A stretch of DNA of 64,000 nucleotides from a bacterium (GCA_024711295.1 JANJTB010000018.1:1-64000); one strand, 5' to 3'. Counted from the stretch's first letter, positions 3,281-15,725 are shown. Notes: generated by a model not told the origin, from the sequence alone. A program made the numbers and translations.

Positions 3281-5203
3281 CTATTTTGTGCTCAGGTATT
3301 TGATAATTATCTCGAAATCCAGTGATACGCTGTAGTTTTTGAGATAATATTCATTTATCTCGTTAATTGATTTATCCGGTAACGGCTTAATAGACGACAA
3401 ATCCGCAAGTGAAAGTAATCCCGGTTTGATACCCTCGTATCTTGCTTTGTCCTGTTTTACTCCTACAAATGTATTCTTACCCGAGAGTATTTTCGCAAGC
3501 GACCTAAAGCTGAATTTCTTCCTAAGCATTATCAGGGGGAGAATACCTGCAATAAGCATAAATGCAAGTGAGAAATCAAATACCCGTTTGATTATCCTGT
3601 AACGGAGTATGTTGATATTATATCTTGGCAGCATACTGCTTGTAAAAGTAATATTGTTGATTAGCTGAGACGCTACAAAATCCTCGTATCTGTGAGCTAA
3701 ATGGAATTTTGTGTTCCTAACAGAATTTCCCGACAAAATTTGCATGACCTTTTCGCTGCTCATTTCGGGGTCGGTGATAATAATATTGTTTATCTTGTTT
3801 TCACGAATAATTGAGTCCAGATGTCTCAATTTCCCCAACCAGTTAACGTCGGATTCACTATCCGAAGATTCTTCGCTGATATAACCGATAAGATTAATAT
3901 CCAGGGGATTCCCGGCTCTAAAATCATCAAGCATCTGAGAGAACGAGGACGGTCCGCCAAGGAATGCTGCCCTTACCTGCTGTGGTAATCCTGTTCTTAA
4001 AAATGAGTTGAGAAATATTCTGAACCCTGATGATATAAGAATAGAAACCGCAATTGTAGATAGTAGCGTACCGCGGCTGAAACGATATTCCGTAAAGAAG
4101 TAAGTAAGTGTAGAAAGTATCAAAAAGCTGAGAGTGTATCCAAAAACAGTATTTGTTATCGAGCCGGAGCTTTCGAAATATTCGCCCGCAAGTATCATAC
4201 TGATTATCAATACAAAGGAAGGGACTATAAATACAATAGGATAGGCATAATCCGGAAATCCCGTAAAATCACCGAATACTATGTATGTACCTATAAAAAG
4301 ACTGATAATGAGTGCTGCAACATCAAATGTTATAAGCATTAAATCCCGCTTATACTTGGATAAATATGCGAATAATGAACGAATTTTGATACCTGCTTTC
4401 ATAAATTGCAAGAATAATCCCGAGCCGGAGTAATGCTTGCGTATGAATATTTCCATAGCATCATAAAAATGCCGGATATCATTTTGGCTGCTTCTTTTCG
4501 AGCTCTCTCCCTTGTAGTGAATAATTGATGTAGTATGCACATAGGCATTTTTATAACCTGAATTATGTACTCTGTAGCATAGGTCGAGGTCTTCGCCATA
4601 CATGAAAAAATCTGAATCAAAACCGCCTACCGAGCGAATAATCTCTGCCTTAGAAAACATAAAGCAACCGCTTACCGCCTCGGTATAATATGTTTCGTCA
4701 ACAGGCATAAATGTCTGATTGTATTTTCCGAATATTTTAGACTTGGGGAATAATGCCTGAAGCCCGAACAACTTGCTGAATGACGCAAATGGAGTTGGGA
4801 AACCTCTTCGGCACGAGCTTTGAAAAGTGCCGTCCGCATTAAGCACCTTGCATATTGAAATACCCACTTCTGAGTGATTTTCCATATAGTCGTGCATTAC
4901 TTCGAGGGTATTCTCCTGCAAAATAGTATCAGGATTTAGTATCAGCAGGTATTTGCCACCAGCTTCGGCGATGCCGGCATTATTGGCTTTTCCGAATCCG
5001 ATATTTTCGCTCAGGGAGATAAATTTAACTACTGGGAATTTTGGCTTCAGGTAATCTACCGAATTATCCTGCGAATTATTATCAACGACAATTATCTCAA
5101 CACTGAGGTTTCTTTTTGCATCAATTATCGAGCGAAGACACTTGTAAAGGTAGTCCCGCACATTATAATTAACAATAATAATTGATATATCATATTGATG
5201 CAT
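3281..5203 (-). CDS. GT2 glycosyltransferase fused to a degenerate polyprenyl sugar-phosphate transferase
   Basis: 640 residues in three parts. Residues 1-260 are a rhamnosyltransferase-like GT2 domain: IIIVNYNVRDYL at the start, VDNNSQDNS, LILNPDT, then GGFDSDFFMYGEDLDLCYR with the catalytic ED. Residues about 285-395 form four membrane helices. Residues 400-640 follow the plan of WcaJ/PglC-type transferases (CoA-binding-like fold, KRVFDFSLAFML helix, IKPGLL, EYYLKNYSVSLDFEI). The KFRSM and LDEIPQ catalytic segments present in the neighbour at 5962-7446 are missing. The GT2 part is probably active and the second half structural. It is last in the operon, 15 bases after the Dpm1-like gene. 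Confidence 0.85.
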   Translation of the reverse strand: MHQYDISIIIVNYNVRDYLYKCLRSIIDAKRNLSVEIIVVDNNSQDNSVDYLKPKFPVVKFISLSENIGFGKANNAGIAEAGGKYLLILNPDTILQENTLEVMHDYMENHSEVGISICKVLNADGTFQSSCRRGFPTPFASFSKLFGLQALFPKSKIFGKYNQTFMPVDETYYTEAVSGCFMFSKAEIIRSVGGFDSDFFMYGEDLDLCYRVHNSGYKNAYVHTTSIIHYKGESSKRSSQNDIRHFYDAMEIFIRKHYSGSGLFLQFMKAGIKIRSLFAYLSKYKRDLMLITFDVAALIISLFIGTYIVFGDFTGFPDYAYPIVFIVPSFVLIISMILAGEYFESSGSITNTVFGYTLSFLILSTLTYFFTEYRFSRGTLLSTIAVSILISSGFRIFLNSFLRTGLPQQVRAAFLGGPSSFSQMLDDFRAGNPLDINLIGYISEESSDSESDVNWLGKLRHLDSIIRENKINNIIITDPEMSSEKVMQILSGNSVRNTKFHLAHRYEDFVASQLINNITFTSSMLPRYNINILRYRIIKRVFDFSLAFMLIAGILPLIMLRKKFSFRSLAKILSGKNTFVGVKQDKARYEGIKPGLLSLADLSSIKPLPDKSINEINEYYLKNYSVSLDFEIIIKYLSTK

Positions 5204-5218
5204 TCTATTTTGCCGGTA

Positions 5219-5941
5219 TTATTTCTTTTTGTTCTTAAAAGAACCTTTGAAAATCTTCAGTTTCCAAACCAAAAAAATTGCTTCATAGATAATACTTTTA
5301 TTCATTTTCGAAACGCCGGAGCGTCTGTCAACGAAAATTATAGGAATTTCCTTAATTCTGGCACCGTTAACCCACATTCTGAAATTCATTTCAATCTGGA
5401 ATCCATAGCCGTTGGTTTTTACAGATCTTAAGTCTATTTCACTTAGCTTCGAGGCTCTGAAGCATTTAAAACCTCCGGTAGCATCCATCAGCGGCATTCC
5501 TGTAATTACGCGTGTGTACATATTTGCACCATAGCTGAGTATAAGTCTGCTCAGGGGCCAGTTAATCACATTAACACCTTTGATGTATCTTGAACCGATA
5601 ACCAGGTCGTTGGTTTCGAGCTCTTTAAGCAGGTTAGGAAGTTCGTTGGGGTCGTGCGAAAAGTCGGCATCCATTTCAAAAATTGCTTCGAATCCTTTGT
5701 CGAGTGCATATCTGAAGCCATCACAATAAGCAGTTCCCAATCCCATTTTTCCTGGGCGTTCGATAAGGTGTATTCTGCTGTCGATTGCCATCATTTTTTT
5801 TACGGCAGCGGCAGTACCATCAGGAGAATTATCATCAACAATCAGAATATTCAAGCCATCAATTTTGCTGAGAACCTCATTGATGATTTGCTCTATATTT
5901 TCAATTTCGTTGTATGTAGGGATTACTACAATTGATTTCAT
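5219..5941 (-). CDS. polyprenol-phosphate mannosyltransferase (Dpm1-like GT2)
   Basis: 240 residues of GT2 fold. It starts VVIPTYNEIENIEQII, has the nucleotide-sugar motif VDDNSPDGT (about residues 35-43), a DAD metal site in EMDADFSHDPNELP (about 90), and SRYIKG and DATGGFKCF, all typical of dolichyl/polyprenyl-phosphate mannose synthases. There is no C-terminal membrane segment, so it is the soluble Dpm1 form, not the GtrB form. It likely makes a polyprenyl-phosphate hexose donor for surface glycan or protein glycosylation. It sits between the sugar-phosphate transferase and the GT2 fusion, 20 and 15 bases away. Confidence 0.9.
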   Translation of the reverse strand: MKSIVVIPTYNEIENIEQIINEVLSKIDGLNILIVDDNSPDGTAAAVKKMMAIDSRIHLIERPGKMGLGTAYCDGFRYALDKGFEAIFEMDADFSHDPNELPNLLKELETNDLVIGSRYIKGVNVINWPLSRLILSYGANMYTRVITGMPLMDATGGFKCFRASKLSEIDLRSVKTNGYGFQIEMNFRMWVNGARIKEIPIIFVDRRSGVSKMNKSIIYEAIFLVWKLKIFKGSFKNKKK

Positions 5942-5961
5942 ATTAATTCCTGATTTATGTA

Positions 5962-7446
5962 TTATGCTTGACCATGCCCGGTAATTACAAGGTAAACTGT
6001 ACGTATAACAATTTCGACATCAAGACGAAGACTCATATTCTCGATGTAATAAAAATCACCCTTAATTCTGTATTTAATTTCGTCGAGCGACAAAGTATAG
6101 CTTGATGATTGTACTTGCCACCATCCTGTAATTCCCGGTCGCACTTTGAGACGTCTTTTGTAGTGTGGAATTGCACGTGAAAATTCTTCCACAAACTTGG
6201 GCTGCTCGGGACGTGGTCCCACAACGCTCATATCACCAAGTAAAACATTAACAAACTGGGGAATTTCGTCGAGATGCGTTTTTCGGATAAATTTTCCGAA
6301 CTTAGTTACACGCGGATCGTTAACTACAGTCCATTTCTGCTCTTTTACCTCGGGCTCGAAAGTCATTGACCTGAATTTGTAAATATTAAATACTCTTCCA
6401 TCTTTTCCGACACGTGGCTGAATGTAAAGAAAAGGTCCTTTTGAATCCAATTTTACGAAGATAGCAACCAAAATCCAAATTGGTAATCCTCCAAGCAGTA
6501 CCAGCAAGCTGAATGTGATATCGAATATTCTTTTCATAGCTTCCTGCCATGGCTTCATAAGTTGGGTACTGATATCTATCAATGGAATACCATATAGATT
6601 ATGAGTTTTTGCCTGTCCTGTGAATATATCATACAAATCCGGCTCTATCCTTACGCGTAAGTTTCTGTCGGAGCATACAGATACGACAGAAAGCAGTAAA
6701 TCGTGGTTGGTTTTGTCAGAGCATATTATCACTTCTTCGGGGTGAATAGTATCTATTAGGTGTTCGAGGTCGTCGAGATGTCCTAATACCTGATTATTAA
6801 AGTCGTGTACGGGATAATTGGTATCAAAAATATCATCTGACTCAATCAATACAATCCCCAAAGATTTAAATCCCCACGAAGGACTTTGCTCTGTTTTCAG
6901 ATAAAATTCAAATGCACGGCGGGCTGTTCCGACAATTAATACCGGAATTGTCAGCTTACGCGATGTTCTTAATTTCTTCTCAAAATTCCGTGCAGCCATC
7001 CTGCCGAAAAGAACAGATACAGACATCAGAAGAACATAAATAAAGTAGAGCTGTCGTGGCGATGAAGCGCTGTCGTATATTACCAGGAATATTATAAAGG
7101 CACACCCGATCAGAGTGACCTTGAGTACTGCCCATATTTCATCGAAAGGTGATCGCTCGTACCAATTTTTGTACATCCCCGAAAAAAAGAAAACATTGAG
7201 CCAGTAAAAAAGGAAAAGCATTGTGCCCATTGCTACTTCGACTAAGCCGGGCTTGACTATAACAGAATAAATGCCGCTCTCAAACCTTATGTAATAGTAT
7301 GTAAGATAGCTGAATATTACTGCTATCGAATCTACTATTACCTGAATGAGTATCTGTGAATGCCTCGACCGGAATATCGGCTTTTTTGTTGCCAAAGATT
7401 CGAGTCTTGATTGAGCTTCACTGAGAACTTTGCTGTTTATTACCAT
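5962..7446 (-). CDS. undecaprenyl-phosphate glycosylphosphotransferase (WcaJ-like)
   Basis: 494 residues with the full architecture of polyprenyl glycosylphosphotransferases. There are four N-terminal membrane helices (about 30-155), a CoA-binding-like domain (165-280), a re-entrant helix, and a C-terminal catalytic domain with YKFRSM, LDEIPQ, VVGPRPEQ and VRPGITGWWQV all intact. It would transfer a hexose-1-phosphate onto undecaprenyl phosphate, the priming step of exopolysaccharide or O-antigen repeat synthesis. It is the second gene of the minus-strand operon, 119 bases after the GT2 at 7566. The sugar donor cannot be read from sequence. Confidence 0.92.
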   Translation of the reverse strand: MVINSKVLSEAQSRLESLATKKPIFRSRHSQILIQVIVDSIAVIFSYLTYYYIRFESGIYSVIVKPGLVEVAMGTMLFLFYWLNVFFFSGMYKNWYERSPFDEIWAVLKVTLIGCAFIIFLVIYDSASSPRQLYFIYVLLMSVSVLFGRMAARNFEKKLRTSRKLTIPVLIVGTARRAFEFYLKTEQSPSWGFKSLGIVLIESDDIFDTNYPVHDFNNQVLGHLDDLEHLIDTIHPEEVIICSDKTNHDLLLSVVSVCSDRNLRVRIEPDLYDIFTGQAKTHNLYGIPLIDISTQLMKPWQEAMKRIFDITFSLLVLLGGLPIWILVAIFVKLDSKGPFLYIQPRVGKDGRVFNIYKFRSMTFEPEVKEQKWTVVNDPRVTKFGKFIRKTHLDEIPQFVNVLLGDMSVVGPRPEQPKFVEEFSRAIPHYKRRLKVRPGITGWWQVQSSSYTLSLDEIKYRIKGDFYYIENMSLRLDVEIVIRTVYLVITGHGQA

Positions 7447-7565
7447 TAATTATTTAAATACACTTTTAGATAAATTCAAAAATAAGATTTTTTTCTTTAT
7501 AAATAAACTATTGATATATTTATGTTTCCGTCAATTTGTTGTGTTCGGAATTAATGTAAATCATC

Positions 7566-8729
7566 TCAGGAATTAAAGCCTTCACGATTCCAAATAGCAT
7601 TCTGACGCTTTGACAAAAACCTGAACAATCCTAAAAGTGAGCTGTAATTCATCGAAACAAAAAATAAAAATATTCGCAACTTTGTGAATGGTATGTTTAA
7701 TTTTTCGAATATCCAACCTATGATTGCAAACCCATAAAGCATTATCTGTGGAATCACAAAGAGATAAAATATCATCATCGAATAATTGCTGAATATGGAT
7801 GTAACTCCAAGCAAGATAAGAAATATCGGCGACAGCCATCTGAAAATTTTGTGTGACCAGATGAAGAAAGCGGTCATACCGTAGTCATGAGCACTCAGCA
7901 ATTTCTTGTGATAGGAAACGGTAGCCCATCCTCCGGCAACAGCACGGACTCGTCTGTGAAATTCATTGCTGAGACTTTTTGGTCTTACTTCGTAAGCTTT
8001 GGCATCTTTGGCAAAAAGCAGGCGATTTTTACTCTCCAGCACACAGTAAATGTTATGTAAGTCATCACATACCAGATTATTGGGAATATTTCTGAACAGA
8101 TCTTTTCTTATTCCGTAAAAATACCCTAGTGAGTTTACGTTAGAGCCGATTTCACCTTCGAGAATTCTTATTTTTTCTTCGTATCTGTGGTAAACAGAAT
8201 CACCCTGACTGCCTGCATTCTCGGTTTTTCCGTCACCCACAACTGTCTGTGATGCTATTACTCCACCAACTTTCGGGTTAGCAAAGTAAACAACGAGGTT
8301 TTTTATGGTATTGGTGTTTAGTCTTACATCTGCATCCATAAACAAAATAATGTCTGTCTGTGCCGAAGGTACTATATTATTAAGCAGGTTATTCTTTCCG
8401 CCTCTGGATACTTTAATCAGTTTTACATTACTGTTGTTATAAGAGAAAGACTCGACGATTTCATTTGTTTTGTCCTCCGAGCCATCCGAGCCGACGATGA
8501 TATTCAGTTTATCTTTGGGATAATCGGAATTCAGCACAGAATTCAATGCTCCAGCTATCAATTCCTCTTCGTTGTATGCTGCTATGATTACAGTTATTTC
8601 GGGATAATACTCTGCCGGTGGTACTATACGATGTGGTATCAGTTTCGACAAAAAAAGTAGTATTATAGGATAAAATATGTAAGAATAGATTGTCAGAAAT
8701 GCCAGTAATATTATTTCTGTACCGTTCAA
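7566..8729 (-). CDS. membrane GT2 glycosyltransferase (BcsA/HasA-like fold)
   Basis: 387 residues. One N-terminal membrane helix (about 8-32) precedes the GT2 domain: IIAAYNEEELIAGAL, VGSDGSEDKT, FMDADVRL (the DxD metal site) and RRVRAVAGGWATV in place of the processive QxxRW motif. At least three C-terminal membrane helices follow (about 290-387). This layout fits a membrane glycosyltransferase that extends a lipid-linked or exported glycan. It is the first gene of the minus-strand polysaccharide operon, transcribed divergently from the phage-like module starting at 9068. Confidence 0.88.
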   Translation of the reverse strand: MNGTEIILLAFLTIYSYIFYPIILLFLSKLIPHRIVPPAEYYPEITVIIAAYNEEELIAGALNSVLNSDYPKDKLNIIVGSDGSEDKTNEIVESFSYNNSNVKLIKVSRGGKNNLLNNIVPSAQTDIILFMDADVRLNTNTIKNLVVYFANPKVGGVIASQTVVGDGKTENAGSQGDSVYHRYEEKIRILEGEIGSNVNSLGYFYGIRKDLFRNIPNNLVCDDLHNIYCVLESKNRLLFAKDAKAYEVRPKSLSNEFHRRVRAVAGGWATVSYHKKLLSAHDYGMTAFFIWSHKIFRWLSPIFLILLGVTSIFSNYSMMIFYLFVIPQIMLYGFAIIGWIFEKLNIPFTKLRIFLFFVSMNYSSLLGLFRFLSKRQNAIWNREGFNS

Positions 8730-9067
8730 CTATTGCCCTGCTCTTTATTTATAATAGTAAGATTTTGATGAATATATTTAGTTAAATTTGATTTCTAAAT
8801 ATTACATAATGATTAATTAAAAGAATTATTGCATTTATCGGGCAATTTAAAGTACATAATTAAACGGGATAAATAATAATAATTTCATCACCACAACTAC
8901 CCGACGAGTATATTTAAATTATTAATATATATAGATATACATAATTTTATATAGTTTTAATATGATTTATAAATCCTTTTAAAATGATACAATTTATAAA
9001 ACATTCTGATACACTTACTTTCGCAACATAAAAATTGTTCTTTAAATTTTATAAGGGTACGAAACAG
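8730..9067. other. AT-rich divergent intergenic region
   Basis: 338 bases between the polysaccharide operon (leftward) and the Mu-like module (rightward). It is very AT-rich with runs of TTTAAT and ATATATA. An AAGGG ribosome binding site sits about 10 bases before ATG 9068. I looked for long direct or inverted repeats shared with the 3' edge of the phage-like module (15726-15799), which would mark attachment sites, and saw none. Promoters for both directions must lie here, but I could not identify a convincing TTG-N19-TAnnTTTG site. Confidence 0.5.
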
Positions 9068-9916
9068 ATGTATATCGAAATTTTTAAGACAGGCACGCAC
9101 AATGATTCCAAAGGTAATACAGGTACTTACTCACCTCAAGACATTGACACAATAGCACTCAACTACAAGCAACGACTTGACGACAATCCGACAAACTACT
9201 GTCCGGTAGTGAAGGGGCATCCCGAAACTGATGCACCTGCTATGGGCTGGGTCAGAAAATTGTTCAGAAGAGCTGATTCCCTTGTTGCTGATATTGATAT
9301 CACCAACAACGATTTTGCAAATTCAATCAGAGAGGGTGCCTTCAAAAATGTATCAATTGCTCTTGATAATGACCTGAATTTCATTCATTTGGGATTTTTG
9401 GGAGCAGTAAAGCCAGCAGTTGAAGGTCTGAACATTTATAAGTACAGCGATGTGAGTGAATTTGCCGCTTATGGTGATGATGAGGAATTCATCAACAAAA
9501 TATGCTATGAGTATTCAGGTAAGATAAATGAACTTGCTAAGCTAAATCAGGAATATCAGAGCAAAATCAATTCATATTCAGAGAGTATGATTGAAAAAGA
9601 TGCAAAAGAAATAATTTCACATTTCGAAAAGGATAATCCTACTCTTTCGGTTGAAATTTATGAAGATGTAAAGAAACTTCTGACCGAAGCTAGAAATGAT
9701 GCTAAAGACAGAAAAGAAGATTATTACCGCGAAATGCAACAAACATTGAGAAAAATTGCTGAAATCAGAGCTAATGATAATTCAGACAATCCCAAAAGGA
9801 GTTCATCACACAAATACAGTATCGAGAGAAGTAAACTGCACGACAAAGTAAACGAACTGATAAGTACCAACCCCGGCATGACCTACGAAGATGCACTTAA
9901 TTACAGACTTTTTTAA
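9068..9916 (+). CDS. Mu gpI-like prohead protease with scaffold C-terminus
   Basis: Start ATG 9068 (MYIEIFKTGT) is preferred over the in-frame TTG at 9035 because AAGGG precedes it. That gives 282 residues. Residues 1-130 match the Mu I-type prohead protease plan: CPVVKGHPETDAPAMGWV with His51, and AFKNVSIAL with candidate nucleophile Ser96. Residues 150-245 are a charged coiled coil typical of the fused scaffold part. The role would be to assemble the procapsid and then degrade the scaffold. The gene lies directly upstream of the capsid gene, as in Mu-like phages. Assignment rests on motifs and synteny. Confidence 0.78.
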   Translation: MYIEIFKTGTHNDSKGNTGTYSPQDIDTIALNYKQRLDDNPTNYCPVVKGHPETDAPAMGWVRKLFRRADSLVADIDITNNDFANSIREGAFKNVSIALDNDLNFIHLGFLGAVKPAVEGLNIYKYSDVSEFAAYGDDEEFINKICYEYSGKINELAKLNQEYQSKINSYSESMIEKDAKEIISHFEKDNPTLSVEIYEDVKKLLTEARNDAKDRKEDYYREMQQTLRKIAEIRANDNSDNPKRSSSHKYSIERSKLHDKVNELISTNPGMTYEDALNYRLF

Positions 9917-9946
9917 TATTTTCAACCAATCAAAAGGAAAGAATAA

Positions 9947-10888
9947 ATGTCCACATCAAGAATTGATGATTTAAGAATTGTTGACCCTGTACTTACTTCA
10001 ATAGCTCAGGGTTTCGAGAACAGCTCTTATATTGCAGAAAAGTTATTCCCAACAGTAAAAGTTAGCAAGCTAAAGGGCAAAATTCCCGTATTCGGCAAAG
10101 ATGCATTTGTCATCAGAGCCACCGAGAGAGCAATCAGAGCGAGCTCTAACAGGATAATGCCATCAGATTTTGAGATGATTACATTCAATACTCAAGAGCG
10201 CGATATCGAGACTGCCATAGACTATCTCGAGGAGGAAGAGTCGCCCGACTATTTCAGATACGAGCAGCGGGTAACCAAGAATCTCGTTGATATACTTAAA
10301 CTCGGCAAAGAAAAGGAAGCTGCCGACCTTGCACAGAACGAAAACAACTATTCTGTGGATATGTACGATACGCTGACCTCGGATACTGCATTCAGCAACT
10401 ACGAGTCAATTACCAATCCCCTTGATATTCTCAAAGATGCTATGAATACAGTGCGAAACAAGATTTCAAGATATCCCAACACAATGGTAATAGGTATTTC
10501 AGCATTTGATAAGCTGATGAATCATCCCATGCTGACAGAACTGGTTAAATATTCGGGATTGGCAAAGCTGAACAAGAATATTCTTGAGCAAATCCTGAAT
10601 ATTGATGAAATTCACGTAGGTACAGCAGTTTATTCCGCTGATGGAGAAGTATTCTCAGACGTATGGGCTGATAACGTTATCCTAGCATATGTTGATAAGA
10701 CACCCAAGCAAAAACGATCTGAATACAACCCAAGTTTCGGATATACACTTCAGAGAGATGGTAAGCCGGAGATTGATACATACTACGAAAATGGAGGTAA
10801 GCTGAAAGTAATCAGAAATACTGATAATTACGGTGTATTCATCACTTCGGGTGATGCTGCATATCTTATAAAAAATACTGTTCAATAA
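9947..10888 (+). CDS. phage major capsid protein (Mu-like/cap-E type)
   Basis: 313 residues, start ATG with a good AAAGGAAAG ribosome binding site. The N-terminus (DPVLTSIAQGFENSSYIAEK, then LFPTV) is characteristic of the HK97-fold capsid proteins found in Mu-like and related phages. The interior contains an E-loop-like segment and a P-domain helix (NPLDILKDAMNTVRNKI). A conserved C-terminal portion follows (VILAYVDKTPKQKRSEYNP, then SFGYTLQRDGKPEIDTYYE). Length is normal and the frame intact. It is followed 22 bases later by the decoration-like gene, in the head-module order. Confidence 0.85.
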   Translation: MSTSRIDDLRIVDPVLTSIAQGFENSSYIAEKLFPTVKVSKLKGKIPVFGKDAFVIRATERAIRASSNRIMPSDFEMITFNTQERDIETAIDYLEEEESPDYFRYEQRVTKNLVDILKLGKEKEAADLAQNENNYSVDMYDTLTSDTAFSNYESITNPLDILKDAMNTVRNKISRYPNTMVIGISAFDKLMNHPMLTELVKYSGLAKLNKNILEQILNIDEIHVGTAVYSADGEVFSDVWADNVILAYVDKTPKQKRSEYNPSFGYTLQRDGKPEIDTYYENGGKLKVIRNTDNYGVFITSGDAAYLIKNTVQ

Positions 10889-10910
10889 TTAAAAAGGAGT
10901 AAAAAACAAC

Positions 10911-11255
10911 ATGTCATTCAACGACAAAACATTTAACGCACTGGCATTTTTCAGTATCAAGGCGGCGGCCGACCTGCCTGCAAACAGGTTTGTCGGATTT
11001 GATGGAAATATCGCAGCTCTCGAATCAAAATCTCTGGGTGTAACTCAATACGACTGTAGTAGCGGAGATTATGCATCAGTTATTACCATAGGCACGGCTG
11101 TTGTCGAAACTTCCGTAGCTGTCAGCGCAGGCGACAAGCTGACTGCAGACGAAAACGGACTTGCTAAGAAAGCAATAGGTACGGCCCTGATAAATGGCAG
11201 ATCGCTGGATACTATTTCAGCGCCGGGCTTTGTGAGAATTCTGCTCACAACATAA
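10911..11255 (+). CDS. DUF2190-like capsid decoration protein
   Basis: 114 residues. It is beta-rich, with the pattern of phage DUF2190/decoration proteins: AAADLPANRFVGFDG, then LGVTQYDCSSGDYASVITIG, then VSAGDKLTADENGLAKKA and a C-terminal GFVRILLTT. Such proteins cap or stabilise the capsid lattice. The position right after the major capsid gene agrees. An AAAAAGGAGT ribosome binding site precedes the ATG. The gene is small but intact. Confidence 0.75.
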   Translation: MSFNDKTFNALAFFSIKAAADLPANRFVGFDGNIAALESKSLGVTQYDCSSGDYASVITIGTAVVETSVAVSAGDKLTADENGLAKKAIGTALINGRSLDTISAPGFVRILLTT

Positions 11256-11383
11256 ATTGATTTTTTGCTATGGTAATTTACAAATCTACCTGTACCATTA
11301 CTTACATGTAACACATCTTCAACAAGCCGGAGCTCTGTTTGCTTGCATCGTGCTCCGGCACATATTAATCAAAGGATAATAAT

Positions 11384-11764
11384 ATGGCTTATTCCAGTGA
11401 TTCCGATATCATAAATTATCTCAGCACGGAAGAATTGTCGTCACTGACAGGCAGCACAGAGATTGACTACGCAAAGATTGAGTTTGCAAGGGAGCGTTCC
11501 GATGCCTTTATTGACCTTTTTCTGCAAGGGAAAGTGAGTTTTGACAAAGAGAATGTTCCGGTGATAATCAACCGCATATCTGTAGAGCTTACGATAGTGT
11601 TTCTGTACGAAAACTATCATAATTCAGATGAAATACCAAATATGATTCAGCGAAGAAAACGTGATATTACAAGATTACTTCAGGATATTGCCGCCTCTAA
11701 GCTTGTCCTTGCTCCAAACACAACTTATGATACAATCTTATGTTTAACTAATTCAATAAAATAA
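11384..11764 (+). CDS. DUF1320 (Mu gp36-like) head-tail protein
   Basis: 126 residues starting MAYSSDSDIINYLSTEELSS, the typical opening of DUF1320 proteins (AYxTxxDLxxxxxxxELxxL). A helical body follows: ARERSDAFIDLFLQGK, then INRISVELTIVFLY, then RRKRDITRLLQDIA. In Mu the equivalent gp36 lies just after the capsid gene and is thought to act in head completion. The 128-base gap before it contains only an AAAGGA-type ribosome binding site and short palindromic sequence. It ends one base before the next gene. Confidence 0.75.
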   Translation: MAYSSDSDIINYLSTEELSSLTGSTEIDYAKIEFARERSDAFIDLFLQGKVSFDKENVPVIINRISVELTIVFLYENYHNSDEIPNMIQRRKRDITRLLQDIAASKLVLAPNTTYDTILCLTNSIK

Positions 11765-11765
11765 A

Positions 11766-12062
11766 ATGGAAAATAAACTAAAAGCAATCGCAGAGAAAAT
11801 CAAAAGGCATTCTTTATGGATTTTGCCTGCAATAGTTGCATTGATTATTCTCTCTCCGGCAAAAGCCGAAATAAGAACATTCCTTTTGGTGCTTAGCATA
11901 GAATGTACCGCAATTTTCATGTCTGCATTATCTGCACGGGTATATACAAAAATGGACTTTACAAAAGAAGCTGTGAGCAACCTCGGTTACATTTTTATAG
12001 GAGTTCATCTATGCGTCGGATTATCTGTACTTGGCGTATATATTGCACAATTTACACCTTGA
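11766..12062 (+). CDS. small membrane protein, candidate holin
   Basis: 98 residues with a basic amphipathic N-terminus (residues 1-18) and three hydrophobic segments (about 17-32, 38-58 and 72-94). Size, topology and location immediately before a CHAP-type hydrolase suggest a holin or other lysis-associated membrane protein, but there is no family-specific motif. It starts one base after the gp36-like stop, and its TGA overlaps the next ATG (TGATG at 12060-12064), so the genes are translationally coupled. Confidence 0.55.
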   Translation: MENKLKAIAEKIKRHSLWILPAIVALIILSPAKAEIRTFLLVLSIECTAIFMSALSARVYTKMDFTKEAVSNLGYIFIGVHLCVGLSVLGVYIAQFTP

Positions 12063-12616
12063 TGCTAATCATGAACAGCGAATCATTTTCAATCACAAAA
12101 TACATGCTTCCCTGCCCGGAGAAGCTACTTATCGGGTCAGAGAAAATCCTCTTCAATGAGCTTTATAATTCGCAGAATATACCTATTGATAATCTAAGGG
12201 CGAAATATCTGGCATCTGTTGGCTTGAAAGGTAATCATCATTATTGTGCAGCAGCCCAGTATTACTGCTTTGCCGAGGCATGCAGAAGAAATAATATTCC
12301 TTATTCCGATATTCCTTTGCCAAAAACCGGTTTAGCACGAAAGATGCTTTCATACGCCAGTTCGAAAGGTGTAAAAGTGCAATTCACACCTCACAGGAAT
12401 GATTTGCTGGTGTGGAGACTCGCAGGCAGCAGCTGGAGAGGCCATATCGAAAGAATAGTTGAGATTTATCCTGCGGGTTGGGTAAAAACTATAGGGTTTA
12501 ATGTGTCGCGAGGCACTAAAAAGGGAAGAATTTACTTTATGAAACGAAATATATATCATCCTGTGGGAAAGCTCATTGTAGCGGGTTTGATAGGTTTTGG
12601 TGAGGTGCGTGAATGA
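12062..12616 (+). CDS. CHAP/NlpC-like peptidoglycan hydrolase (endolysin candidate)
   Basis: The likely start is ATG 12062, overlapping the upstream stop (alternative ATG 12071); about 184 residues. The core matches the CHAP/NlpC-P60 papain fold: HYCAAAQYYC with a candidate catalytic Cys, then DLLVWRLAGSSWRGHIERIV, in which HIERIV supplies the His. These enzymes cut peptide stems or cross-bridges in peptidoglycan. Behind a putative holin and inside a capsid gene cluster, it is best read as an endolysin or virion-associated lysin. No signal peptide is visible, consistent with holin-dependent release. The C-terminus is basic and hydrophobic. Confidence 0.68.
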   Translation: MLIMNSESFSITKYMLPCPEKLLIGSEKILFNELYNSQNIPIDNLRAKYLASVGLKGNHHYCAAAQYYCFAEACRRNNIPYSDIPLPKTGLARKMLSYASSKGVKVQFTPHRNDLLVWRLAGSSWRGHIERIVEIYPAGWVKTIGFNVSRGTKKGRIYFMKRNIYHPVGKLIVAGLIGFGEVRE

Positions 12617-12966
12617 ATTTGTTTATGACAAAGAACAAAAATGCCGCATCAGGCTTCGTTACCAAATGGTATCCCATGCAACTTACAAATCTTGACAGCA
12701 GAGATAAATTTTATGTCGCTTCAAGTATTACTGTTGTCTGGAATGATATGCGGTTTACACTTAATCAGAAACCGATATTGAAAATTGAGTTTTCGCAAGA
12801 TAGCCGTAATCCAGTATCTGCAAGGGAATTTGCGATTGACTCAGAGAGTAACAGCAACGATATACTTTTGCTCTTGCTTGTAGAGCAGCTCAAATATGTA
12901 AGGGTTACCTACAATTCCGAAGCATGCACTGAAGGTATTTTAAACATTTTAATAAATTACAGGTAA
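12613..12966 (+). CDS. hypothetical protein of the Mu-like module
   Basis: 117 residues, predicted mostly beta with a helix (SNDILLLLLVEQLKYVRVTYN), with no motif I can name. It overlaps the hydrolase stop by 4 bases (ATGA at 12613), so it belongs to the same transcript. A small beta protein between a lysin and a fibre-like gene could be a tail or fibre accessory, but nothing in the sequence proves that. Confidence 0.6.
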   Translation: MNLFMTKNKNAASGFVTKWYPMQLTNLDSRDKFYVASSITVVWNDMRFTLNQKPILKIEFSQDSRNPVSAREFAIDSESNSNDILLLLLVEQLKYVRVTYNSEACTEGILNILINYR

Positions 12967-12970
12967 AAAT

Positions 12971-14140
12971 ATGCCGATAAAATATTTGCCACAGCTAAGT
13001 GGAAATCCCGAATGGGGTGAAATCTCAGGCGATATATCAAGTCAGAATGATTTAAATGAGGTACTCTCAGGATTTAGTCCTACGAATCATAATCACAGCT
13101 TATCTTCATTGATCGAAAAGAGTTACAGCTCACTCAGTGATAAGCCTGATTTGAGTAAATTTTTGAAATATACAGATATAGTCTTGACTCCTGCTATCAT
13201 AACAGATGGTATTGATGACTATTTAACTATTGCTGATTTCCCGGTTGCACTGCCGGGAAAAAGCTTTTCACTTATCATGAGAGCCGGTCTTGTAAATTAT
13301 TACGAAGATGCTCTATTATTCGACAACCTTAATCTAGTCAATAAATCCGGTTTCTGCCTTTCGTGCAATTATGGAATTGTCAAATTCTCAATCGGAAACG
13401 GTACGGATATCTATACTGCAAATCATTCATTTACTATCGAGGAGGGCAGGATATATCAGTTTGCTGTCAGCTTCGACGCCTTATCCAATAAGTTGATATT
13501 CTCGATAGATAAACTTGCAGAGGAACATTTCTTTCCGGATTTAGGAGATTATGAAGTAAATTTGTCTTACCCGACAATCGGAAAAAGAGGAGCCTCATAT
13601 TTTGCCTTACTGATCCATTCAATTTCATTTATTAGAGGCGCCATAGAAATCGCCGAAATAATTGAACTATTCGACAATTATAATTTTTCGGTAAATAAGT
13701 TCCTGAAGTATAAAGACGAGATGGATTTTCTGCTTTATCCCGAGAATTGCAGTTATCATAATTGGACAGATATTTCACCAAACTTAACAGACGCAGCAAT
13801 GCATGGTGGAATTTCTCCGGTATATCGCCCGAATAAAATTGTACTTTACAAAAGGGGAATTGACGAAGACATTACGATCGAAAATGCGATTGCGTCGGGC
13901 TACTCCGCAGATTATCTTATAATAATTAATCAGTCATCATCAGTGTGCGAGTTAGATGTTTTGATAGATTCGCAATACTTCAAATCAGGGATTACGATAC
14001 CGGGGTACGGGGAAGAAATTATTACCATAAACAGAATGTACAAATTACAGCAAGCTACTCCGCTTTCATTTGAATTCGAAAGTACTACATTTGAAATAGA
14101 TATTGTATTGCTTATGAGTAAACAACTATTGGAGTTCTAA
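12971..14140 (+). CDS. phage tail-fibre-like protein with LamG-like domain
   Basis: 389 residues. The first 65 resemble fibre N-termini: EWGEISGDISSQNDLNEVLS, then NHNHSLSSLI and SSLSDKPDLS, the common collagen-free phage fibre pattern with HNH-type turns. Residues about 75-225 look like a concanavalin/LamG-like jelly roll (DGIDDYLTIADFPVALPGKS and later GRIYQFAVSFDALSNKLIFS). The C-terminal third is unassigned beta structure. It is probably a receptor-binding or surface-adhesion component. It starts 4 bases after the previous gene. A cell-surface lectin is an alternative, but there is no signal peptide. Confidence 0.65.
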   Translation: MPIKYLPQLSGNPEWGEISGDISSQNDLNEVLSGFSPTNHNHSLSSLIEKSYSSLSDKPDLSKFLKYTDIVLTPAIITDGIDDYLTIADFPVALPGKSFSLIMRAGLVNYYEDALLFDNLNLVNKSGFCLSCNYGIVKFSIGNGTDIYTANHSFTIEEGRIYQFAVSFDALSNKLIFSIDKLAEEHFFPDLGDYEVNLSYPTIGKRGASYFALLIHSISFIRGAIEIAEIIELFDNYNFSVNKFLKYKDEMDFLLYPENCSYHNWTDISPNLTDAAMHGGISPVYRPNKIVLYKRGIDEDITIENAIASGYSADYLIIINQSSSVCELDVLIDSQYFKSGITIPGYGEEIITINRMYKLQQATPLSFEFESTTFEIDIVLLMSKQLLEF

Positions 14141-14145
14141 AAAAA

Positions 14146-14580
14146 ATGAAAATCACATTTACCGAAATGCTGATAATGATAATATTAATTATCACAGCTT
14201 TAAATTCATACTTTCTGATACGCTCGGGCAACAAGGATAATAATATTGGGAATATCGTAATTGACACAATCTACAAGGAGAGGGTTATCGAACCTATTGT
14301 AGCTAAAAAGATAAGCGCCCGCAGAATAAAATCATCGCAGGTGGATTCTTCATTCAGAGCTGTTGCAGATACCGTAATAAACAAAGATACTATCAGCATC
14401 AGTTATGCTTATCCTGAGGATTATTTTGATTTTGAGATGCGACATGCACCTGATTCCCTGATGCAACGAGTGATAACAATCAACAGGGATATTGTAATCC
14501 CTGAACCATGGTGGGAGAATCCACTGTATTTTGCGGCAGGCCTGATAGCTGGTCTGATAAGTTATATTATTATTATTTAA
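14146..14580 (+). CDS. bitopic membrane protein, possible spanin-type lysis accessory
   Basis: 144 residues with one N-terminal membrane helix (about 7-26), a periplasmic-looking polar stretch with Ser/Asp/Arg repeats, and a second hydrophobic helix at the very C-terminus (about 125-144). It lies 5 bases after the fibre-like gene and 11 bases before the portal gene. Small proteins of this layout occur near lysis genes in Bacteroidota phages, so a spanin-like role is possible. There is no lipobox or named domain, so this is a guess from topology. Confidence 0.5.
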   Translation: MKITFTEMLIMIILIITALNSYFLIRSGNKDNNIGNIVIDTIYKERVIEPIVAKKISARRIKSSQVDSSFRAVADTVINKDTISISYAYPEDYFDFEMRHAPDSLMQRVITINRDIVIPEPWWENPLYFAAGLIAGLISYIIII

Positions 14581-14591
14581 GTGGAGTAACT

Positions 14592-15725
14592 ATGAATTAT
14601 CTTACTGACGAGTTAATCAAACCTAACAGTAATTATCGAAATATCAGTCAATTAGGTATTTTGCCGCAGATAAGCAAAACATTGCTTAGCAGAGGTAATC
14701 CTTATAGTAAAATACGAGAACTAAAAAATGACTCTCATGTATGGAGTTGCATTCAATCCCGAAAAAGCGGAACTCTTACGCTTGACAGTTTTTTAGATGC
14801 CAATGAATGTAGCACCGAGACAGTTGAATTCATCAAAAATATTCTTAACTCTATTGATATGAATAAGTTCGTTGATGAACTGCTGGATGCTCCATTGATG
14901 GGATTTCAGGTGCATGATATAATCTGGAAATATTCAGGTGAAAATAATCAGTACCTTGTTCCCGGAAAGCTGGTATCCCGACCTCAGGAGTATTTCGGAG
15001 TAGATGAACATGGCGACATTATGTACAAAGCATCACTTGATGATGAATACAGGAAGATTCCGGAATATAAATTCCTTATTACAGGCAGTCTGAATTATAA
15101 CGAAAATCCATTGTCAAACTCATTGCTTGCCAAGTGCTACTGGAATGTAATTTTCAAGAATACTGCTGTAAAATTCTGGGTAAACTATACCGAGAAGTAT
15201 GGTTTCCCGCTGATAATCGGTCAGTATAACCGTGGTGCCTCGCAGCACGAAATCCAGAGTCTTGGCGAAGCTTTGCAAAAAATGACCGATGATACTGTGC
15301 TTGTAACGCCAATGGATATTGACCTCGAACTCAAGGAAGCAAAACGAAGCTCTTCGGCAGAACTTTACAAAGAATTGATACATTTTTGCAATAGCGAAAT
15401 ATCCAAAACTCTTCTTTCGGAGACTCTTACAACCGAAATGAGGAGTGGCTCGTATGCCGCCGCACAGACACATTACAGAATCAGGCGGGAAGTTGCCGCA
15501 GCAGACTCATCTTTGGTTGAGTCGAGTATTAACAGGTTGATAGCATATACCATTAAGCTAAATTTCGATAGCGACAAATATCCAAAATTTAAGTTTGTTA
15601 TAAATGACTCTGACAACTTGAATAAAATTGACAGGGATATACAGCTCAACAAAGCGGGTGTCAAGTTCAGCAAATCTTATATCATGCGAACTTACGGGCT
15701 ATCCGAAAGCGACTTCGATATTTAA
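14592..15725 (+). CDS. DUF935 (Mu gp29-like) portal protein
   Basis: Start ATG 14592, preceded by GTGGAG; the in-frame GTG at 14508 would run through the upstream gene. 377 residues, shorter than the roughly 510 of Mu gp29. Diagnostic stretches include IRELKNDSHVWSCIQSRKSG, AVKFWVNYTEKYGFPLIIGQ, and LSETLTTEMRSGSYAAAQTH, followed by RIRREVAAAD, all strongly DUF935-like. The portal would be the capsid vertex through which DNA passes. In Mu-like phages it precedes the protease and capsid genes, with terminase before it; here it is last and no terminase is present. The shortfall is mainly at the C-terminus. Confidence 0.85.
   Translation: MNYLTDELIKPNSNYRNISQLGILPQISKTLLSRGNPYSKIRELKNDSHVWSCIQSRKSGTLTLDSFLDANECSTETVEFIKNILNSIDMNKFVDELLDAPLMGFQVHDIIWKYSGENNQYLVPGKLVSRPQEYFGVDEHGDIMYKASLDDEYRKIPEYKFLITGSLNYNENPLSNSLLAKCYWNVIFKNTAVKFWVNYTEKYGFPLIIGQYNRGASQHEIQSLGEALQKMTDDTVLVTPMDIDLELKEAKRSSSAELYKELIHFCNSEISKTLLSETLTTEMRSGSYAAAQTHYRIRREVAAADSSLVESSINRLIAYTIKLNFDSDKYPKFKFVINDSDNLNKIDRDIQLNKAGVKFSKSYIMRTYGLSESDFDI

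Follow-up and report, generated by a model that had tools for sequence, protein, structure and literature searches.

Few gene transfer agents (GTAs) have identified genes, and most of those are alphaproteobacterial; RcGTA has a siphovirus-type tail. The alphaproteobacterial GTAs, RcGTA among them (Rhodogtaviriformidae), are phage derived and vertically inherited, are encoded at several loci, and are released by lysis (PMC9953437). The Faecalibacterium FpGTA, from the Firmicutes, is podovirus-like: a ten-open-reading-frame head operon that includes TerL is near-ubiquitous in its genus, a second, unlinked operon encodes a tail fibre, a receptor-binding protein, a holin, and an endolysin, and the particles, which have no identifiable tail, were demonstrated to hold 8.4 to 8.9 kb of host DNA (PMC12946183). 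Outside the alphaproteobacteria, the gene clusters behind GTA-like packaging in other phyla are yet to be identified (PMC12946183). Here, we describe a ten-gene module of Candidatus Kapabacteria, located at positions 9068 to 15725 (plus strand) of a 64,000-nucleotide stretch of DNA (GCA_024711295.1 JANJTB010000018.1:1-64000; "the window"). Its family-wide presence, vertical inheritance, and purifying selection strongly support a domesticated capsid device, one of the options that an initial annotation of the window had offered. With a probability of roughly two in three, we read it as a domesticated Mu-like phage head system that is probably working as a GTA.

All ten frames are intact and co-directional, start with ATG, and are separated by 1 to 128 nucleotides (nt) or overlap by 1 or 4 nt (Table 1), in agreement with the tight, undamaged packing described earlier. 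Five of the products named at that stage matched profile hidden Markov models (HMMs), and by these matches their identity as protease/scaffold, major head protein, cement (decoration) protein, Mu gp36, and Mu (DUF935) portal is beyond doubt. The remaining five (holin-like protein, hydrolase, g7, fibre, and g9) had no direct HMM family match. We surveyed the module across its host family, whose members are recorded as Candidatus Kapabacteria/Kapaibacterium and "Ignavibacteria" metagenome-assembled genomes, with a complete chromosome (CP058732.1) among them. A profile of the major capsid protein (MCP) matched 47 of 54 family genomes and 39 of the 42 of good quality, with one strong copy in each; a few genomes had weaker extra copies belonging to prophages, and the sole match in G028 was a prophage. 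When 245 genomes were sampled across the class, 13 of the 14 listed from the family had an MCP match, versus four of about 230 others; of these four, the three retrieved (G059, G180, and G271) were prophages, seen as runs of phage genes. Among 2.9 million viral contigs, there were only four MCP matches, on fragments of 5 to 8 kb with the module layout. IMG/VR "viral" contigs with this layout (L093, L094, L095, and L096) are probably misfiled fragments of bacterial chromosomes. Module-bearing family genomes that public records label Desulfobulbaceae or Chloroherpeton thalassium (L065 [JAGXRP010000060.1], L079, and L080) are probably mislabelled assemblies.

The gene order protease-MCP-cement-gp36-holin-CHAP-g7-fibre-g9-portal recurred in about 40 loci, and the portal, already noted to stand last in the reverse of Mu order, closed the module wherever the end was assembled. 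Beside the module, relatives had no terminase or tail genes, with the exception of a terminase in G033, and no relative had the missing tail genes linked to it.

The module is inherited vertically with the host and is under purifying selection. Trees of the MCP, portal, protease, and TerL (encoded elsewhere in the genome; see below) had 15 to 16 of 27 splits in common with the rpoB tree, compared with at most 3 when labels were shuffled. Mantel correlations with rpoB distances were 0.39 to 0.68, and none of 2,000 permutations was as high. The MCP, portal, and TerL trees each recovered all seven multispecies genera as monophyletic, and in the protease tree genus g18 was not monophyletic; well-supported conflicts with rpoB remain (five for the MCP, one for the portal, and three each for TerL and the protease). 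The flanks of the module were conserved inside genera g19, g20, and g25, and those of TerL inside genera g9, g20, g24, and g25. Across genera the locations differ, and the three species of the window's own genus have the module in different places; no insertion site common to different genera was found. The advised search of relatives for the same gene order at the same host locus recovered the order and, within several genera, the locus. Pairwise ratios of nonsynonymous to synonymous substitution rates (dN/dS by the Nei-Gojobori method, with dS saturated in some pairs) were 0.016 to 0.069 for the MCP, 0.037 to 0.13 for TerL, and 0.038 to 0.075 for the portal. No gene exceeded 0.29, most values were below 0.15, and the relaxed selection that the initial annotation had proposed to look for was not seen. 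Vertical inheritance at fixed chromosomal loci and purifying selection on the genes for structure and packaging are both features of GTAs. The same data contradict a decaying prophage remnant or rearranged prophage. Although Mu-like ancestry and the damaged copies in two genomes (a portal frameshift in G026 and an interruption in G011) fit such a remnant, the module is intact in most of 27 genera. Its gene set is retained even in genus g24, where protease-MCP-cement lies at one locus and gp36-holin-CHAP-g7-fibre-g9-portal at another, unlinked one, with every gene present. We therefore regard a remnant or rearranged prophage as extremely unlikely.

The reported lack of a terminase was correct for the module and its immediate surroundings but not for the genome, as the module is accompanied by an unlinked, solitary TerL in nearly every genome. 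A search for the terminase ATPase domain matched 22 of 22 family genomes, compared with 3 of 14 genomes sampled from the order's other families. In a profile search that separated strong solo-type matches from weaker prophage-type matches, at least 45 of 54 family genomes had a complete solo TerL, unlinked among host genes. In the window's genome, this gene lies outside the window (G000:C4:35819-37246), between a sorting-domain (type IX secretion system) protein and a histidine kinase; its product belongs to phrog_38 (3e-103) and has intact motifs (Walker A PPRHGKS, IIDDP, and HDDQVDA). The 15 solo copies first examined formed a clade (support, 100/100) separate from prophage TerL. The solo TerL is tied to the module by its position directly upstream of the protease in G033 and contig L093 and ahead of the module genes in the divergent compact contig L095 (TerL ... 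protease-MCP-cement-gp36 ... g7-portal). Both module and TerL were lost in genus g3 (G004 and G028), which is suggestive, yet it represents one phylogenetic event. Dispersed loci without self-replication or integration genes, together with an intact terminase and portal, are again GTA features: TerL is unlinked, the system in genus g24 is spread over three loci, no such genes were found in the module, and portals are kept. A family 2 glycosyltransferase gene with tetratricopeptide (TPR) repeats lies near the solo TerL in genera g9, g13, g19, and g24 (Table 1), divergently transcribed where checked, which suggests that this neighbourhood is the ancestral TerL locus.

Complete Mu-like siphoprophages of the family (G067 L147/L148, G077 L172, and G001 L174-L176) have homologues for the majority of module genes, arranged in the same order (protease-MCP-cement-gp36 ... 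holin-CHAP-g9), drawn from the same MCP, portal, protease, cement, gp36, holin, CHAP, and g9 families. Their TerL-portal-MuF genes are on the other strand, and farther downstream come a tail terminator, fibres, and a tape measure; unlike the module, they thus possess their own tail terminator, tape measure, and MuF, as well as replication-type genes. Because these prophages hold most module genes in matching order, the module resembles one half of a Mu-like siphophage, the half with the head, lysis, and fibre genes, with the portal shifted to the end and the terminase moved away. GTAs, too, derive from tailed phages and have head and packaging genes homologous to theirs. Module MCPs and portals form clades without any prophage member (moderate support). 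The closest MCP from an isolated phage, that of Pseudomonas phage Komp_PAO1_1, was 39% identical, and the nearest TerL in phage collections was 40 to 41% identical, so there is no close phage donor. Near-identical Mu-like prophages occur in different genera (G001:C1:1393000-1412999 [L118], G020:C58:70000-89999 [L120], and G017:C59 [L132]), with TerL branch lengths of 0.002 to 0.08. Such prophages therefore move horizontally and have recently spread across genera, and the module does not. The window's genome also contains a separate Mu-like prophage (G000:C25:152000-183000; L001 and L135) that encodes a terminase, a portal, MuF, and a tape measure.

The search for Mu-like genes elsewhere in the genome, as initially advised, recovered the terminase; in most module genomes, MuF, sheath, tape measure, and tail terminator were not found. 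Sheath, MuF, and tape measure were searched for genome-wide, and transposase was judged from flanking genes only. A tail sheath was present in just 2 of 31 family genomes, and a contractile tail for the module particle was rejected. MuF was present in 13 of 31, never in a module locus. Tape-measure matches occurred in 7 of 25 family genomes, and those checked were all in prophage regions; a tail terminator was found in 6 of 25, in prophages where checked. The linkage of MuF, sheath, tape measure, and transposase to head genes that marks a complete Mu-like prophage was not seen, nor was the siphovirus-type tail with a tape measure of the alphaproteobacterial-type GTAs. A satellite resembling phage-inducible chromosomal islands (PICIs) and borrowing the tail genes of a helper phage, as had been suggested, would explain a capsid without a tail, and Mu-like prophages do reside in some of the same genomes. 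Such satellites are mobile, integrase bearing, and helper dependent, whereas the module is vertically inherited at loci fixed inside genera, has no integrase among its ten genes, and has its TerL unlinked. In addition, 18 of 25 family genomes tested had no tape-measure match that could supply the tail. A satellite is therefore very unlikely.

If the module works as a GTA, some cue would switch it on, and the protease/scaffold, capsid, and cement proteins would form a small HK97-type procapsid, fitted with the portal and usually the gp36 adaptor. The solo TerL, whose gene lies at another locus, would then pump host DNA into the procapsid in a headful manner; with its genes dispersed, the particle cannot carry its own full gene set, and the packaged DNA would therefore be host DNA. 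The holin, CHAP endolysin, and spanin-like protein would lyse the producer cell, the lysis genes implying release of particles. Where present, the fast-varying fibre would bind a cell surface, as implied by its conserved anchor and variable C-terminus. Since no tail gene was detected, we would expect a particle with a very short tail or none, so that the entry of DNA would hinge on the recipient. The fuller proposal of a new, ancient GTA lineage in Candidatus Kapabacteria, with a Mu-type head, an exiled terminase gene, head-only tailless particles, and tail-independent DNA delivery, we advance tentatively, leaning slightly against it as a whole.

A domesticated particle could also have another job, either PBSX-like killing or signalling or the packaging of DNA that is stored or released but not delivered to recipients. 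Every domestication finding fits this equally well, the tail genes for injection were not found, and PBSX provides a precedent, as its DNA-filled particles kill rather than transfer (PMC12946183). However, killing of the PBSX type requires a tail, none of which was detected, and TerL and the portal are under strong purifying selection, which places DNA packaging among the best-conserved steps. To our knowledge, TerL and portal have no established use other than DNA packaging. We consider such another job unlikely. An encapsulin-like protein compartment would account for an HK97-fold shell and cement protein retained by the host, but the portal, TerL, maturation protease, and lysis genes, none of which a compartment needs, are retained as well, making this the least probable of the readings considered.

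Several points weigh against a GTA. The system is known here from genes alone, from which we infer the particle, its packaged DNA, lysis, and transfer. How far the tail searches can be relied on when negative depends on HMM sensitivity; a small terminase was not identified, and a regulatory motif common to the whole family was looked for and not found. Genus g18 yielded neither gp36 nor g7, and a fibre could be recognised in just 18 of the 45 loci. The G026 portal is apparently frameshifted into two overlapping frames (L046, G026:C30:4908-6037), and the G011 module is interrupted, with an incomplete portal (L036/L185, G011:C61); this damage reflects either local decay or assembly error.

The lysis and fibre genes were assigned from models and orthologues, which upheld the CHAP hydrolase and fibre-like protein of the initial annotation. 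Prophage orthologues of the holin-like protein stand directly before the endolysin. The AlphaFold2 (AF2) model of the CHAP-like hydrolase (pLDDT, 94) had phage PlyPy and CHAP domains as its best PDB matches (E 2e-3, low TM), its prophage orthologue matches endolysin phrog_21825 (2e-9), and most relatives have a signal-like N-terminal segment. For g7, the top viral-library match was a 116-amino-acid viral protein (E 1e-5; TM, 0.67), and a fold search against the PDB gave no clear functional match; its orthologue adjoins that of g9 in one prophage (L175). The N-terminal fibre motif is common to 18 genomes with variable C-termini, and the G020 orthologue matches tail-fibre families (3e-9). Orthologues of g9 adjoin the endolysin in prophages, and its position suggests a spanin-like protein. 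The portal probably starts at 14592, as relatives open with MNYLTDEL.

Table 1. Genes of the module (window coordinates) and the glycosyltransferase gene near the solo TerL (contig coordinates)
Feature	Position	Strand	Evidence
gpI-like head maturation protease/scaffold	9068..9916	+	phrog_976 E 4e-35; present in 44/45 module loci
Major capsid protein (MCP), HK97/Mu type	9947..10888	+	phrog_1005 E 1e-88; PF03864 2.6e-6
Capsid cement/decoration protein	10911..11255	+	PF09956 6e-8; phrog_673 2.5e-21
Mu gp36-like head completion/adaptor	11384..11764	+	PF07030 8e-14
Holin-like small membrane protein	11766..12062	+	hydrophobic segments in sequence; orthologues in 38 module loci
CHAP-like cysteine endolysin	12062..12616	+	invariant C62, H128, E130, N147 in alignment
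g7 protein, small beta-sandwich, probably virion-associated	12613..12966	+	AF2 pLDDT 93
Fibre-like protein	12971..14140	+	conserved N-terminal anchor WGEI.G.I..Q.DL; genus-specific C-terminus
g9 protein, N- and C-terminal membrane segments	14146..14580	+	orthologues in 34 module loci
DUF935/Mu-type portal	14592..15725	+	PF06074 1.5e-83; closes module wherever 3' end assembled
Family 2 glycosyltransferase with TPR repeats, near solo TerL	L121:7692-8780, L125:7740-8720, L128:10958-11926		

In the window, the module has a family 2 glycosyltransferase as its left neighbour and, on the right, a small unnamed protein followed by NusB; no terminase or tail gene was found within or adjoining it. Directly to its left, on the opposite strand, is a run of glycosyltransferases with a bacterial sugar transferase (3281-8729), a polysaccharide synthesis cluster. 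No att-like flanking direct repeats were found, as had been reported, the best pair (24 nt, 88%) lying within the flanking genes. The sequence TTTTAAAATNNTACA occurs exactly before both the protease (window 8965-9010) and the solo TerL (L116:9780-9820) in G000; as a promoter motif common to the two genes, it was rejected, being not clearly above chance across the family.

In the literature that we searched, no such system had been reported for Kapabacteria. The gene set suggests that these cells make virus-like particles carrying their own DNA. As a candidate on the Bacteroidota side that is vertically inherited and present family-wide, the module would extend host-controlled DNA exchange beyond its known range, and it raises the question of whether a tailless phage head can act as a gene carrier. 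The structural region of bacteriophage Mu shares the gpI-like protease, gp36, and DUF935 portal families with the module, but there the portal comes first rather than last, and MuF, sheath, and transposase are not in the module. The alphaproteobacterial GTAs resemble the module in the general properties given at the outset; compared by description only, the module differs from RcGTA in that neither tape measure nor tail terminator nor sheath turned up outside prophages. Relative to FpGTA, the module combines a Mu-type head and portal with a TerL that stands alone elsewhere, has its lysis and fibre genes inside the head operon, and is so far a system read from its genes. With its unlinked operons and its particles that show no tail, FpGTA is the nearest parallel.

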